Shown here: positions 4,007 to 58,471 of the stretch, one piece after another
Layout of the letters: every line of letters begins with the position of its first letter
How positions within the stretch are numbered: the stretch's first letter is position 1
From: Clostridiales bacterium
GTDB taxonomy: Bacteria; Bacillota; Clostridia; Lachnospirales; Lachnospiraceae
DNA: 64,000 bases
Reading direction: 5' to 3'
NCBI GenBank assembly: GCA_021199255.1
Contig: JAJQIK010000013.1
Coordinates: forward strand, 29,900 to 93,899
Notes under the pieces: model-generated
Database searches by the model: none
What the model was told of the DNA's origin: nothing
What the model saw: the letters and a program-made list of their open reading frames with translations, nothing else
Program-made: the position numbers and the translations under genes

Positions 4007-4187
4007 GAATATTTTATAAATTATATGATACCATGGATTTCTACGCGCTCTGCGCTCCCGAAATCCTAAAAACATTCGGAATCTGCTCATTTTTCCAAGA
4101 AAAATGGCTACTTCCTCATGTTTTTGCGGGTCTCAAAGTCATGAATACGAATGCAAGCATTCGATTCATGGCTTTTGGACCCTGGTA

Positions 4188-4463
4188 TCATCCCATATTT
4201 GCGAAGCGCTCTACTGCTTTCGTGAAATCAGCAATCGTTTTATCAGCGTCGCCGTGTTCGATCCCGTCACGCACACAATGCTGAATATGTCCCTCAAGTA
4301 CAACTTTACCGCATCCATGCAGGGCAGATTTCGCCGCATTGATCTGAGCCAGAATATCCTCACAGGGAATGTCCTCGTCCACCATCCGGTCAATCGCCTG
4401 CACCTGTCCAATTATTTTTTTCAGCCTGCGATGCAGGTTCTCTGCATCCATACATTGCCTCAT
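4188..4463 (-). CDS. csoR: CsoR/RcnR/FrmR-family metal-sensing repressor
   Basis: 91 residues, all-helical DUF156 protein (RRLKKIIGQVQAIDRMVDE). It has Cys34, His59 and Cys63, exactly the C-X24-H-X3-C spacing of copper-sensing CsoR, although related sensors share it. These proteins bind GC-tract dyads and release DNA when metal binds. The start is set by GGAGGG six bases before the ATG. It stands as a single gene behind its own operator-like dyad, and a similar dyad lies ahead of the P1B-ATPase operon. Confidence 0.9.
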   Translation of the reverse strand: MRQCMDAENLHRRLKKIIGQVQAIDRMVDEDIPCEDILAQINAAKSALHGCGKVVLEGHIQHCVRDGIEHGDADKTIADFTKAVERFANMG

Positions 4464-8282: not shown

Positions 8283-9809
8283 CTATTCAATCATCCTAAA
8301 ATGTCTTAATGCGTCAATAATGGCTTCTCTCTTTTCAGGTGTCACTTGCTTCGGCTCATAATCCTCACTTTTGCTAAGATTATAATTTGCACCCATTTCA
8401 ATTCCACATTCACGCTTTACCTGTGCAATATACGCTGAATGTACCTTTAAGCCGTATTTTCCCTCAATATATTCTTGTACCTCTCTATAGGAAGCGTGCC
8501 TGTTTACCTCATCCATGTAACTGCCATCAGGTGTATAATCAATCGTTACATACTTCTTTGCTTTTTGGTGGCACAGTAAGACGCATGTTTCCACACACTC
8601 CGTATACGGAAACATATCCACAGGCGTAATCTCCATCACCCGATAACCGCTCCCGCCCTTTCTGCCGCTGTTCGGCCGGCTTCCCTTCCCCGCGCCGGTC
8701 AGATACGCCAAGTCCCGCGCCAGCGTTTCCGGGTTACAGGAAATATAGACAATTTTAGATGGCTGCAGCCGCAGCAGGGCGTTCATAAATTCTTCTGTGC
8801 TGCCGCTTCTTGGCGGATCCATAAAGACTACATCTACACAGGTTTCTGACTGAGCCAGCTGCACCATAAATCTGCCCGCGTCATTCTGATAGAAATCTAT
8901 ATTTTTAATCTGATTCCTTTTGGCATTGGCCACCGCGTCACGAACCGCGTCCTGATTCAGTTCCACGCCGATCACCTTCTTCGTCTTTGAAGCCGCCGCT
9001 AATCCTATCGTACCAATCCCGCAGTACGCGTCTATCACGGTTTCCCTGCCGGTCAGGGAGGCATACTCGATAGCCTTGCGGTACAGCTTCTCAGTCTGGA
9101 CGGCGTTCACCTGATAAAAGGATTTGGGCGAAATTCTGAACGTACAGCCGCACAATACGTCTTCAATATACCCTTTACCATACAGCACCTGCTCTTTGTC
9201 GCCCAGCACCATGCTGGTCTTTTTATGATTCACATTCAGTACAATCGTCGTGATTTCAGGGTGCAGCTTACATAGGGCGTTCACAAAGTTTTTCTTAGAG
9301 GGCAGAATAGGGGAACCCAGCACCAGCACTACCATAATCTGCCCCGTGGCATATCCCACCCGGATAAGCACATGGCGAAGCAGTCCGTAACCGGTATCTT
9401 CATTGTAGGTTTTGATTTTAAAAGATTTCGCCAGCTCCCGAATGGATACGATAATCGCGTCCGCCTTCTGATTCTCCAACAGGCAGCTATCCACCGCTAT
9501 CACATGGTGGCTGTTTTCCTGATAGATACCGGACACAATTCCTCTGCCCTTCTGAAAATCATAAACTGCATGCACTTTATTTCTGTAATATTCCGGCTGC
9601 TCCATTCCAATCATCCGGTTCACCTTACCAAAGCCCTTCAAAAGCTGTTCCGTGTATTTCTGCTTTTTTGCAAGCTGTTCCGCATAGGGGACACCCGCAT
9701 AGCGGCAGCCGCCGCACTTCTTAGCCACCGGGCACTTATGCATTTCCTCTGCTTTACCGGCTCTATCTTTCATTTGCTTACCTTTTACATTCCTTCTGTT
9801 CTCTTCCAC
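8283..9809 (-). CDS. rlmD: RlmD-like 23S rRNA (uracil-C5)-methyltransferase with extra C-terminal domain
   Basis: About 508 residues. It methylates uracil C5 in RNA using SAM. An N-terminal iron-sulphur Cys cluster (CPVAKKCGGC) is followed by the SAM fold (DAYCGIGTIGLAAA) and the catalytic DPPRSG and SCNPETLARDL motifs. The TRAM domain is absent, as in many Clostridia. The final ~85 residues (SYREVQEYIEGKYGLKV...YIAQVKRECGI) form an added domain that also occurs alone at 4787-5062. The GTG at 9809 is used because GGGG lies six bases before it, supplied by the structured repeat just upstream; an ATG at 9776 with AAAGGT is an alternative. An apparent extension further upstream is read through the repeat and is not real. 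Confidence 0.88.
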   Translation of the reverse strand: MEENRRNVKGKQMKDRAGKAEEMHKCPVAKKCGGCRYAGVPYAEQLAKKQKYTEQLLKGFGKVNRMIGMEQPEYYRNKVHAVYDFQKGRGIVSGIYQENSHHVIAVDSCLLENQKADAIIVSIRELAKSFKIKTYNEDTGYGLLRHVLIRVGYATGQIMVVLVLGSPILPSKKNFVNALCKLHPEITTIVLNVNHKKTSMVLGDKEQVLYGKGYIEDVLCGCTFRISPKSFYQVNAVQTEKLYRKAIEYASLTGRETVIDAYCGIGTIGLAAASKTKKVIGVELNQDAVRDAVANAKRNQIKNIDFYQNDAGRFMVQLAQSETCVDVVFMDPPRSGSTEEFMNALLRLQPSKIVYISCNPETLARDLAYLTGAGKGSRPNSGRKGGSGYRVMEITPVDMFPYTECVETCVLLCHQKAKKYVTIDYTPDGSYMDEVNRHASYREVQEYIEGKYGLKVHSAYIAQVKRECGIEMGANYNLSKSEDYEPKQVTPEKREAIIDALRHFRMIE

Positions 9810-9975
9810 ACTAATCCCCATTTCTGAGCAACTTGTTGCGAAGCGGCGGCGAGAAATCCGCGAAGGCGGTTTCTCGTCTGCCATCAGGGCTATTTGCTTT
9901 CGCTCAGAAACAAATAGCCAAATCCACTTCCAGAGGATTGTGAAAAATCAGCACATCAGTGTGATTTTTCATACT
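9810..9975 (-). repeat. Structured 166-bp repeat, copy 1
   Basis: 166 bp with only four differences from the copy at 58283-58448. On the minus strand it starts ATGAAAAATCAC, contains at least three hairpins, and ends in GGGGATTAGT directly before the next start codon. Hairpins: GAAAAATCA/TGATTTTTC with an inner CAC/GTG; GGCTATTTG/CAAATAGCC; CGAGAAA..CCGC/GCGG..TTTCTCG with a CTTC loop. Its small ORF is cut by TGA at 9904-9906 after 22 codons. Immediately upstream, TGGGATTAGT repeats the element's own 3' end, as though a second unit once stood there in tandem. Confidence 0.85.
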
Positions 9976-10569: not shown

Positions 10570-10581
10570 GGTAACTGCTTT

Positions 10582-10654
10582 CGGGATGTGGCTCAGGTGG
10601 TAGAGCGCTACTTTAGGGAAGTAGAGGTCGCAAGTTCAAGTCTTGTCATTCCGA
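10582..10654 (+). tRNA. tRNA-Pro (anticodon AGG)
   Basis: 73 nt that fold as a full cloverleaf: acceptor CGGGATG/CATTCCG, D-stem GCTC/GAGC, anticodon stem CTACT/AGTAG with loop TTAGGGA (anticodon AGG, followed by G37 as in proline tRNAs), and a T-arm with loop TTCAAGT. The CCA end is not encoded. AGG is an uncommon proline anticodon in bacteria. Confidence 0.93.
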
Positions 10655-10662
10655 TGCCTGAT

Positions 10663-27549: not shown

Positions 27550-28140
27550 TCACGCCCGGCACATCTGCAAAAACATTTCATGAATCCGGTTATCAGAATC
27601 CAGCTCCGGGTGGAAAGCGATTCCCAACTGGTTCCGATAACGCACCGCCACAATATGCCCGTCTACTACAGCCAGTATTTCTACTGCCTGCGCTTCTTCG
27701 GCTTCCTGTACAGACTCAATATACGGCGCCCTGATAAAAGTCATGGGCACACTGCCGATGCCTTTCACCTCCTGCAGCGTATGGAAGCTGCCAAGCTGTC
27801 TGCCGTAGGCATTGCGCTGTACCCGTACCGGCAATGTGCCGAAGTAAGTATGTTCGTCGTTACTCAGCTCCCCAGCCAGCAGAATCAGTCCCGCACAGGT
27901 TCCCAGAACAGGAAGCCCGTTCCTGATCTTCTGCTGCAAAGGAGCCAACAAATCCAGTTCCCGCAGCAATTTCCCCTGCACCGTGCTTTCGCCGCCAGGC
28001 AGGATCAGTCCGTCAAATTCCTGTTCCAGATCAGCCCTTTGGCGCAGCTCGATACACTCCGCGCCCAGCGCTTCCATTCTGTGAATATGTTCCGCAAAGG
28101 CTCCCTGTACGGCAAGCACTGCTATTTTTTTCTTTCCCAT
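27550..28140 (-). CDS. pdxT: Pyridoxal 5'-phosphate synthase glutaminase subunit
   Basis: 196 residues. A class I glutamine amidotransferase that hands ammonia to PdxS. It has AVLAVQGAFAEH, LILPGGEST, the nucleophile Cys in LGTCAGLILLA and the His-x-Glu pair FHPEL near the C-terminus. GAGGG precedes the ATG at 28140. It follows pdxS in a two-gene operon. Confidence 0.96.
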   Translation of the reverse strand: MGKKKIAVLAVQGAFAEHIHRMEALGAECIELRQRADLEQEFDGLILPGGESTVQGKLLRELDLLAPLQQKIRNGLPVLGTCAGLILLAGELSNDEHTYFGTLPVRVQRNAYGRQLGSFHTLQEVKGIGSVPMTFIRAPYIESVQEAEEAQAVEILAVVDGHIVAVRYRNQLGIAFHPELDSDNRIHEMFLQMCRA

Positions 28141-28216
28141 AGCTTCCCTCATTTCGAGGCGTCACAAATTCCTGATGGAATAAATAATTCATCAGAGAAT
28201 TGCTTCCACCTGATCT

Positions 28217-57340: not shown

Positions 57341-58282
57341 TTATCTCTCCTCAATCATGGAAGCGCTACGCAGTCTTTCCCATGCCGGATTGGGAAGTCC
57401 CGCCCGCCTGCGCAGGCTCTCAAATTTTGCATCAAGATACTTCATTTCTTCTACCGCGTGCATAGCGTGGTCACTGACCGAAAGCCGACCGATCGGCGTT
57501 TTATATATGACAAAAAATATCGCCGCCATAACGATTCGCTTCGCTCCTGAAAAACACTTTTCATCCCCGATGGGGAGAATAGGAATACCGAGTTCCTGTA
57601 ATACAGAATAGCCTTCCAGATCGGCGTCCAGAATGGCTTTCCTCTGCCTGTGCGCAGCCTTCTGCAGACGCCCGTCCATGATATAGCAGACGTAACACAT
57701 GGGCAGAACGCATACGGCATGGCATTTCAGCCATGCGTCCATCTGGTTCTCCCAGACCAGGCGACAGCCTGTCCCCTTAAAAGCTTCCTTCAGCTTTTCC
57801 TGAAACGCATGTGACAAGGGCGTATTAAGCCCGCCTACTGTCATTCCGACACCCGCGTGAATACTAATAACCTTCCCGTTTTCCCGCCTTCCCGCTGTTC
57901 CCTGAAAGCCAAATGCAATTTCTCTCTCCACAGGCGAATCAGCCATCGCCAGCCGGGCGGTCTCCTCGGCCGCCATATTGTTGCCCACAAATACGATATG
58001 GGGGCTTGTGTTCTTTGCGATAATCGGAACGACTTCGGGGAGCTGCGACGCCTGCATGACGACGAAAATCAGGTCGTACCTGTCGCCCGGCTCCAATACG
58101 TCAATCGTTCTTAAGCGGTCAACCGTTGTTTTCCTTTGCACATAATGACGGATTGCCAGTCCATTGTTGTCGATGGTTTCTTTCCACTTCCCACGGGCAA
58201 AAAGGATAACGTCATTCTTTTTGCAAAGCATATGGGCAAGCTCGCAGCCAATGACACCCGCGCCATAAATCAGAATTTTCAT
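57341..58282 (-). CDS. Ketopantoate reductase-like (ApbA/PanE family) protein 1
   Basis: 313 residues. Rossmann-fold NADP site at the start (MKILIYGAGVIGCELAHML), then LIFVVMQASQLPEVVPII. The C-terminal helical domain has KCHAVCVLPMCY with the Lys in the family's catalytic position. It is probably not true PanE; such paralogues occur with hydrolase-like genes. The start is the ATG at 58282, one base after the stop of the small ORF in the structured repeat, which supplies the GGGG ribosome-binding site. An N-terminal extension into the repeat is not real. Confidence 0.85.
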   Translation of the reverse strand: MKILIYGAGVIGCELAHMLCKKNDVILFARGKWKETIDNNGLAIRHYVQRKTTVDRLRTIDVLEPGDRYDLIFVVMQASQLPEVVPIIAKNTSPHIVFVGNNMAAEETARLAMADSPVEREIAFGFQGTAGRRENGKVISIHAGVGMTVGGLNTPLSHAFQEKLKEAFKGTGCRLVWENQMDAWLKCHAVCVLPMCYVCYIMDGRLQKAAHRQRKAILDADLEGYSVLQELGIPILPIGDEKCFSGAKRIVMAAIFFVIYKTPIGRLSVSDHAMHAVEEMKYLDAKFESLRRRAGLPNPAWERLRSASMIEER

Positions 58283-58448
58283 ACTAATCCCCATTTCTGA
58301 GCAACTTGTTGCGAAGCGGCGGCGAGGAATCCGTGAAGACGGTTTCTCGTCTGCCATCAGGGCTATTTGCTTTCGCCCAGAAACAAATAGCCAAATCCAC
58401 TTCCAGAGGATTGTGAAAAATCAGCACATCAGTGTGATTTTTCATACT
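58283..58448 (-). repeat. Structured 166-bp repeat, copy 2
   Basis: The same length as copy 1 at 9810-9975 and 97-98% identical. It is inserted between the hydrolase gene and the ApbA-like gene, exactly at the start codon: AGTATGAAAA occurs at both of its ends. Its third hairpin shows a C-G pair of copy 1 changed to U-A (both bases altered). The last ten bases, GGGGATTAGT, act as the ribosome-binding site for the following gene. Confidence 0.88.
58284..58445 (-). CDS. Small leader ORF inside structured repeat copy 2
   Basis: 53 codons starting MKNHTDVLIFHNPLEVDLAI and ending LLRNGD. GGGAGGACAGT precedes the ATG. Its TAG stop lies one base before the ATG of the ApbA-like gene (TAGTATG), so translation could be coupled. 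In copy 1 the same frame ends after 22 codons at TGA. Whether a peptide is made is unknown; the reading frame may be a by-product of the RNA structure. Confidence 0.45.
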   Translation of the reverse strand: MKNHTDVLIFHNPLEVDLAICFWAKANSPDGRRETVFTDSSPPLRNKLLRNGD

Positions 58449-58471
58449 GTCCTCCCTCTCTGCAAGCAGAT

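Follow-up and report, generated by a model that had tools for sequence, protein, structure and literature searches.

IS200/IS605-derived palindromic elements, such as REP and PATE, carry a terminal imperfect hairpin, have a polarity, lack inverted termini and use a short target. Other short repeats offer further points of comparison. In the Bacillus cereus group, the parts of the published accounts compared here describe the group A repeats bcr1-bcr3 as short repeats with mobile-element features; each genome has tens of bcr1 copies, frequently located in UTRs or between the genes of an operon, and conserved secondary structures are described for bcr10 and bcr18 of the same set (PMC3446304, PMC6542083). 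Mobility of the bcr repeats has been linked, in the part of the account compared, to a TTTAT motif (PMC6542083). The BOX elements of Streptococcus pneumoniae, as far as the description compared goes, are interspersed and modular, with optional inner modules, can be folded as RNA, insert into one another and in some cases carry ORFs; they have terminal inverted repeats and target duplications (PMC3049150). Finally, the section compared on the TAACTGA repeats of the Beggiatoaceae places them directly upstream of many start codons, where a role in translation has been suggested (PMC4679880).

Here we analysed a repeat present in a 64-kb stretch of DNA (the window) from a Lachnospiraceae genome. 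A first-pass annotation had noticed two copies of equal length, at 58283-58448 and 9810-9975, which differ at four positions and bring their own ribosome-binding site to the gene that follows. The sequence comparison agreed with this: both copies are 166 nt long, with exactly four differences, at 58327, 58334, 58339 and 58377, and both lie on the minus strand, a point absent from the annotation. Both terminate in GGGGATTAGT, which is followed by a start codon, ATG at the 58283 copy and GTG at the 9810 copy. The four hairpins that had been named are all readable in the sequence, and the compensatory change of C-G to U-A reported in the CTTC-loop stem is real. The 53-codon ORF described for the 58283 copy is also present and ends TAG-T-ATG; in the 9810 copy this ORF stops early because the position matching 58377 turns TGG into TGA. 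What had been overlooked is a pseudoknot, in which TTTCTGGGC (58383-58375) would pair with GCTCAGAAA (58302-58294). Compared with the element as defined by the junction rule given below, the span 58283-58448 includes one more flanking base on the 5' side and two spacer bases on the 3' side. Note that no empty allele of the 58285-58447 site itself was seen, and its junctions rest on other loci. The features are as follows, where a caret marks an insertion junction and SD stands for Shine-Dalgarno sequence.

58285-58447, minus strand: whole element, 163 nt by the junction rule xA^G...GGGGATTA^, from comparisons of filled and empty sites, the consensus of the 5' junctions and the sequence.
58451-58456, minus strand: GGGAGG, the SD upstream of the element, from the sequence; taken as the former SD of the target gene.
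58415-58443, minus strand: H1 hairpin, GAAAAATCA-CAC-TGAT-GTG-C-TGATTTTTC; covarying helix 1 in locus sets A2 and A3, and pattern search.
58394-58412, minus strand: optional hairpin H2 (AATCCTCTGGAAGTGGATT), from copy comparison.
58361-58392, minus strand: H3 hairpin, GGCTATTTG...CAAATAGCC, whose loop contains the 5' pseudoknot arm; closes in 230/231 copies folded with this arm constrained as unpaired.
58375-58383, minus strand: 5' pseudoknot arm TTTCTGGGC; covarying helix 2.
58321-58355, minus strand: P4 helix with a bulged A (GGC-A-GACGAGAAACCGTCTTCACGGATTCCTC-GCC type); covarying helices 3 and 4.
58301-58312, minus strand: P5 hairpin GCAAC/GTTGC; covarying helix 5 and the sequence.
58294-58302, minus strand: 3' pseudoknot arm GCTCAGAAA; covarying helix 2; abuts the SD and is itself anti-SD-like.
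58288-58293, minus strand: TGGGGA, element-borne SD for the downstream gene, from the sequence and the position statistics of the copies.
57341-58282, minus strand: ketopantoate-reductase-like gene (PF02558), from a Pfam match; start taken as the ATG at 58282.
9812-9974, minus strand: second copy, preceding a RumA/TrmA-like methyltransferase gene with a GTG start at 9809.

An NTG sits at the 5' foot of H1, within the stem, and H2 is found in the subfamily of 165-180 nt and is missing from the other subfamilies compared. A consensus scan of the window copy gave no promoter or terminator. ORF finding runs both downstream proteins into the element on the minus strand: the start called for the ketopantoate-reductase-like ORF (57341-58357) falls within the element, at 58357 (MADEKPSSRI...), and that of the RumA/TrmA-like ORF (8283-9884, Pfam PF05958) lies at 9884 (MADEKPPSRI...). 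Elsewhere in the window, a weak match to the structure model R1 (28134-28211, minus strand, 28.7 bits) may be a remnant or a chance hit; it contains a hairpin followed by an SD-like stretch and an ATG. The single tRNA of the window, a tRNA-Pro with anticodon AGG, lies at 10581-10655 on the plus strand, about 600 bp from the 9810 copy.

In the source genome (3.08 Mb, 93 contigs), BLAST gave 46 matches to the repeat, some of them partial or overlapping, and the 5' hairpin pattern, with up to two mismatches, gave 47 matches compared to 0 for the reversed pattern. The repeat is more than a chance likeness, and the two copies first noticed belong to something larger. Pairwise identity among the 19 copies of 165-180 nt in this genome is 0.88 at the median (range 0.74-0.977), and across the family the element measures about 140-190 bp. 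Comparison of the listed copies revealed a modular family with interchangeable hairpins, in the order H1, optional H2, H3 (in several unrelated sequences), a common TGAT, P4 with its bulged A, P5 and the 3' end. H1 occurs in CAT/ATG, TGC/GCA and AAGCT/AGCTT forms, mostly with a TGAT loop; the 3' ends are of the AATGGRGATTA type, that is, an SD plus spacer; and the copies of tandem arrays join as GGNGATTA^GTGTGAAAAATC. At two sites shared by sister species, with flanks that agree (L372/L411 and L377/L416), H1, H2 and the P4 extension have been exchanged, lost or gained, which suggests recombination between copies. Short relatives in genomes G017 and G063 (L365, L375 and others; matches of ~85-105 nt) have H1 and an H3-like hairpin without a clear P4, and are perhaps a minimal subfamily.

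A search of Lachnospiraceae genomes, the check put forward with the first-pass annotation, showed how far the family extends. R1 matched 50 of 60 genomes of the genus, the source genome included, 34 of 250 genomes taken from across the Lachnospiraceae (33 of 249 genera) and 1 of 38 genomes from other families of the order. A scan with the exact pattern found at least 109 stretches; among the 80 titles listed, many name Lachnospiraceae or genera of it, and the remaining ones name only a bacterium, Clostridium, Eubacterium or Bacillus; isolates among the matches listed include Lachnospiraceae bacterium 10-1, 1XD21-87 and Bacterium C-53. Viral contigs held no exact match of the H1 pattern, and plasmids and phages no BLAST match to the element; a viral, plasmid or phage origin was rejected on the basis of these sets.

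The model R1 was built from 27 diverse copies, for which RNAalifold picked the pseudoknot helix itself in place of H3. It gave 108, 84 and 52 aligned matches in the locus sets A2 (collected by the exact H1 pattern), A3 (by the best model scores) and A4 (the source genome), respectively, 237 of the 244 being distinct copies. In these copies the H3 loop complements the bases directly before the SD, although in different sequences: CCGGAGC with GCTCCGG, GACGAGC with GCTCGTC, TTTCTGAGC with GCTCAGAAA and GTCAGAGC with GCTCTGAC. That the stems covary, as had been proposed from a single compensatory change, is very strongly supported by the alignments, although these favour the structure because they were fitted to R1: under the consensus structure, 98.9% of the cells are paired in A3 and 97.1% in A2, and two-sided changes are present in 27 of 36 pairs in A3 and in 32 of 36 in A2. 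With controls that use the same alignment, none of 500 shuffles, which do not keep relatedness, reached any of the covariation measures, and slid structures paired in 31-48% of the cells. When the 5' arm was constrained as unpaired, an H3 of at least six pairs closed over it in 230 of the 231 copies tested.

Across the three sets, the pseudoknot contains 88 G.U and 22 A.C pairs, an excess pointing to a sense-strand RNA. In A2 and A3 together, G.U also exceeds A.C in H1 (35 vs 18) and in P4 (32 vs 16). Two observations count against the sense-strand reading. In A4 the counts are reversed (4 vs 25 in H1, 5 vs 35 in P4). One young subfamily dominates this set, and the A.C excess probably represents the inherited mismatches of that subfamily. 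In addition, the antisense strand of the window copy has a better nested fold (-62.1 kcal/mol, z -6.2) than the sense strand (-56.6 kcal/mol, z -3.9).

The claim that the repeat inserts at start codons holds for most copies. Among the 212 copies (of 237) with sufficient flank, an ORF of at least 60 codons starts at the 3' end in 174, and in 167 this start is accompanied by an SD, compared to 632 of 7948 random same-strand positions (8%) for SD plus ORF start and 36% (1412/3969) without the SD requirement; A2, A3 and A4 are not unbiased samples, and the rate of ORF starts at the 3' end is lowest in A4 (30/46). A random placement relative to start codons, which the annotation had itself named as an argument against a leader role, is not what the copies show. 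The claim fails for some: 38 of the 212 lack such an ORF start at the 3' end, and of these some are followed by a short ORF or by another copy in tandem, and L013, L014, L032 and L037 are not at a start. At the 5' side, an SD precedes the NTG in 127 of the 173 non-tandem usable copies (control 11.5%), and the 5' codon is GTG, TTG or ATG in 159 of them. The 3' start is ATG in 149/173; the count of 137/173 copies with a 3' SD is not independent, since the presence of an upstream SD-like stretch was a condition for choosing the start. The 5' junction reads xA^G, with TAG in 120 of 204 copies, AAG in 30 and CAG in 16. The stop codon of the preceding gene was rejected as an insertion target (24/127 vs 77/423, or 18%, in the control). 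An internal ATGGCA is present in 129 of the 196 copies examined, and in 39 of these 129 its reading frame continues without a stop into that of the gene. At such copies annotation programs may add part of the element to the protein, a mis-annotation that is likely to recur.

Spread by insertion, as first supposed, is borne out by 22 empty sister sites and by the gatB loci. A gatB match was present in 59 of 60 congeners, and 2 of the 30 loci compared carry the element: those of the source genome (141 bits) and of G069 (54 bits), with different copy types, the G069 copy being older-looking. Orthologues of copy-bearing genes were then compared in the sister pairs G006/G034 and G063/G017. A first batch of 16 fragments, one of them without a close sister match, gave 15 aligned pairs, with 9 empty in the sister and 6 carrying an element or remnant in both; a second batch of 17 fragments gave 16 orthologues, with 13 empty in the sister, two filled in both and one not compared. 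A further gene (copies L429, L438) is filled in both sisters, so that nine sites are filled in both, one of them (L357/L385) nearly unchanged. None of the 22 sister-empty loci has an R1 match at the site, the three weak matches (20-28 bits) lying hundreds of bases off. Upstream homology reaches to within 5 nt of the 5' end of the element in 13 of the 22 and to within 13 nt in 16; in the rest it stops 24-46 nt away (four loci) or was not found (two). Since the start of the same gene directly follows in the sister at 16 loci, insertion took place in the region between SD and start. The cleanest pairs, whose gene fragments are 95% and 99% identical, are L359/L413 (empty, GGGAGGGTAATATGG; filled, GGGAGGGTA^...GGGGATTA^ATATGG) and L432/L452 (empty, GTACTTAATATG; filled, GTACTTA^...GGAGGATTA^ATATG), and at the latter the element supplies the stronger SD. 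With dispersed copies and orthologous empty sites, the family belongs to the broad class of interspersed mobile repeats.

The junctions fit a 2-bp TA duplication or none, and a few copies suggest longer repeats. Within a copy, the 5' and 3' SDs are more alike than permuted ones (LCS 5.66 vs 5.02, with 0 of 200 permutations reaching it); tested by set, each against 300 permutations of its own, the likeness is in excess in A2 and in A3 but not in A4. In L358, L426, L220, L027 and L312 the 3' SD is identical to the 5' SD or to that of the sister, which goes beyond the simple junction rule, and in L358 and L426 it resembles that of the target. Gene conversion or longer target duplications may occur. 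Note that a long target duplication is hinted at by the likeness of the two SDs, but not by the cleanest empty sites, where any duplication is no longer than 2 bp.

Our results identify a repeat family with covariation, a position at translation starts and empty sites in sister genomes; the element is inserted in the orientation of the gene, between its SD and its start, with a fold that covaries and, after insertion, an SD at either side. We consider it likely that this is a nonautonomous mobile element of the Lachnospiraceae, a structured RNA leader that is inserted between SD and start and supplies its own SD. Insertion would occur in gene orientation, usually directly after xA and most often after TA. 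Since the 3' end GGRGATTA is an SD plus spacer, the gene would keep its start codon and gain a new SD, and the old SD would remain upstream, facing the NTG buried in the H1 stem. Selection would act on the sense-strand RNA, comprising H1, H3 with its loop-to-3'-end pseudoknot, P4 and P5. The spread may be selfish and tolerated because translation survives it. The specificity for start sites could come from the likeness of the element end, GGRGATTA, to the target GGAG-n-TA, and tandem arrays could arise by insertion behind the element's own end. The pseudoknot might compete with pairing of the 3' arm (GCUCC type) to the SD, and in this way tune initiation. A broader proposal is more tentative, and we hold it with less than even confidence: that the family represents a class of mobile elements targeting the initiation site, which would recognise SD-like DNA (GGAG-n-TA), insert between SD and start and, by means of an end that mimics an SD and a switch based on the pseudoknot (H3 loop : anti-SD arm : SD), rewire the translation of each host gene.

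The upstream SD and NTG of most copies could alternatively belong to a leader-peptide (uORF) attenuator acting by translational coupling, and the annotation had indeed spoken of a leader-peptide element. In line with this, the frame of the 5' NTG runs without a stop up to the gene start in 99 of 196 copies, and the other two sense frames do so in 1 and 2; however, H1 itself carries stops in those two frames. The distance separating the NTG from the start of the gene falls in all three frames (53/62/81 of the 196 copies), the NTG frame stops inside the element in the other 97, and the encoded peptide varies with the compensatory changes in H1 (HTDVL, HIDML, HADAL, HSDEL). Moreover, the NTG is predicted to be locked in the H1 stem (mean unpaired probability 0.014 in 120 copies). 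Neither the uORF frame nor the peptide is conserved; a conserved leader peptide was rejected on the frame spread and the helix covariation, and an attenuator of this kind seems to us very improbable. Another explanation is a riboswitch or protein-binding leader kept for the control of host genes, the apparent mobility being the domestication and recombination of a useful regulator. The strong structural conservation, with a covarying structure adjoining the translation start and a pseudoknot abutting the SD, is what such a cis-regulatory RNA would have, and the nine sites filled in both sisters speak for its maintenance. The 3' pseudoknot arm is able to pair with the SD instead: native arm and SD fold with an MFE of -3.68 kcal/mol, vs -3.29 with the SD swapped between arm classes, and are lower in 136 of 190 cases, an effect that is small and confounded by ancestry. 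In these folding models, the RNA could switch between the pseudoknot and occlusion of the SD, and RNA control of the downstream genes is plausible. However, the downstream genes look unrelated (gatB, rumA, dtd-like and ilvD-like, named by eye from the sequence except for the Pfam matches), near-alike copies with up to 97.7% identity occur within one genome, orthologous sites are empty in sisters, and most of the loops vary, no large unpaired core being conserved. Nested folding of 120 copies also gave no better SD accessibility than in shuffled elements (0.383 native vs 0.380), and accessibility as a selected trait was rejected. We regard a regulator maintained by the host as rather unlikely.

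The means of movement was approached through the enzymes encoded in the genomes. As an IS200/IS605-derived (PATE/REP-like) element, the repeat would travel as single-stranded DNA with the help of a Y1 transposase acting in trans, a reading that suits the imperfect H1 hairpin with a bulged C at the left end, the single orientation to the target, inverted termini not being seen, and junctions that are compatible with no duplication and with insertion after a short target motif. Y1 matches are present in some element-rich genomes (e.g. G015, G082, G003, G008), but not in the draft source genome nor in the element-rich G002, G006, G009, G014, G020, G030, G067 and G083 (drafts, partly incomplete), while G023 has 16 Y1 matches and 3 copies; the 3' hairpin, by eye, is unlike H1. 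A SINE-like element that spreads through an RNA, with a reverse transcriptase that primes on SD complements, would explain the sense-strand signal in the pseudoknot, the SD-like 3' end, the SD target and the partial likeness of the 5' and 3' SDs, and the source genome has 3 RVT_1 matches; but no RVT_1 match was obtained in the element-rich G002, G006, G009, G020 and G034 (drafts, 80-97% completeness), and the cleanest empty sites, with a duplication of 2 bp at most, argue against it. As Y1 and RVT_1 enzymes do not track the copies across the draft genomes, both routes were rejected, each retaining a low probability in our judgement, and no mobiliser was found among the Y1 and RVT_1 matches in these drafts. 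Compared by eye, the 5' end GTGTGAAAAATC and the 3' end CCGGAATGGAGATTA do not form the terminal inverted repeats of a DDE-transposon MITE.

If the element is indeed a nonautonomous one that inserts between SD and start, it would solve the problem of insertion into packed operons by landing at this position and replacing the ribosome-binding site. In gut Lachnospiraceae, one structured 5' leader would have been spread to tens of genes in each genome, with a possible resetting of their translation. The family also provides a large natural collection of sequences in which a covarying pseudoknot immediately adjoins an SD, and since filled and empty alleles of the same gene exist, the effect on translation is directly measurable.

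Searches for an earlier description covered Rfam 15 and the literature. At gathering thresholds the window gave only RF01699 and a tRNA, both elsewhere and none at the element; an E-value search of the element gave three matches, all far below the thresholds; and 16 loci with diverse copies gave two tRNAs and a riboswitch, none at the element. Membership of an Rfam family was rejected, as no match reached the gathering threshold. The RF01699 match is a full-length Clostridiales-1 RNA (4026-4190, minus strand, 129 bits); its model has 166 positions, a length similar to that of the repeat, to which it is unrelated by eye. A literature search of titles and abstract openings, which covers few subscription papers, returned no description of the element.

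The element is like REP and PATE in its terminal imperfect hairpin, its polarity, the lack of inverted termini and the short target, but differs from them in that Y1 transposase does not track the copies and in having a pseudoknot under covariation. As occurs with the bcr repeats, it is short, dispersed and foldable and has mobile-element features; unlike bcr1-bcr3, it targets start codons, delivers an SD and has a pseudoknot, which are absent from the parts of the bcr descriptions compared (PMC3446304, PMC6542083). It shares with BOX the modular make-up with optional inner modules, the RNA fold, the interspersed copies, self-insertion and some ORFs, whereas no inverted termini were seen here, the orientation to the gene is fixed in copies at gene starts, and SD-start targeting does not figure in the part of the BOX description compared (PMC3049150). 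The TAACTGA repeats, likewise directly upstream of many start codons, are, in the section compared, arrays of a short heptamer, while the element here is a structured insertion element (PMC4679880). As far as the descriptions compared go, what sets it apart from bcr, BOX and REP/PATE is the combination of SD-start targeting, a delivered SD and a covarying pseudoknot.
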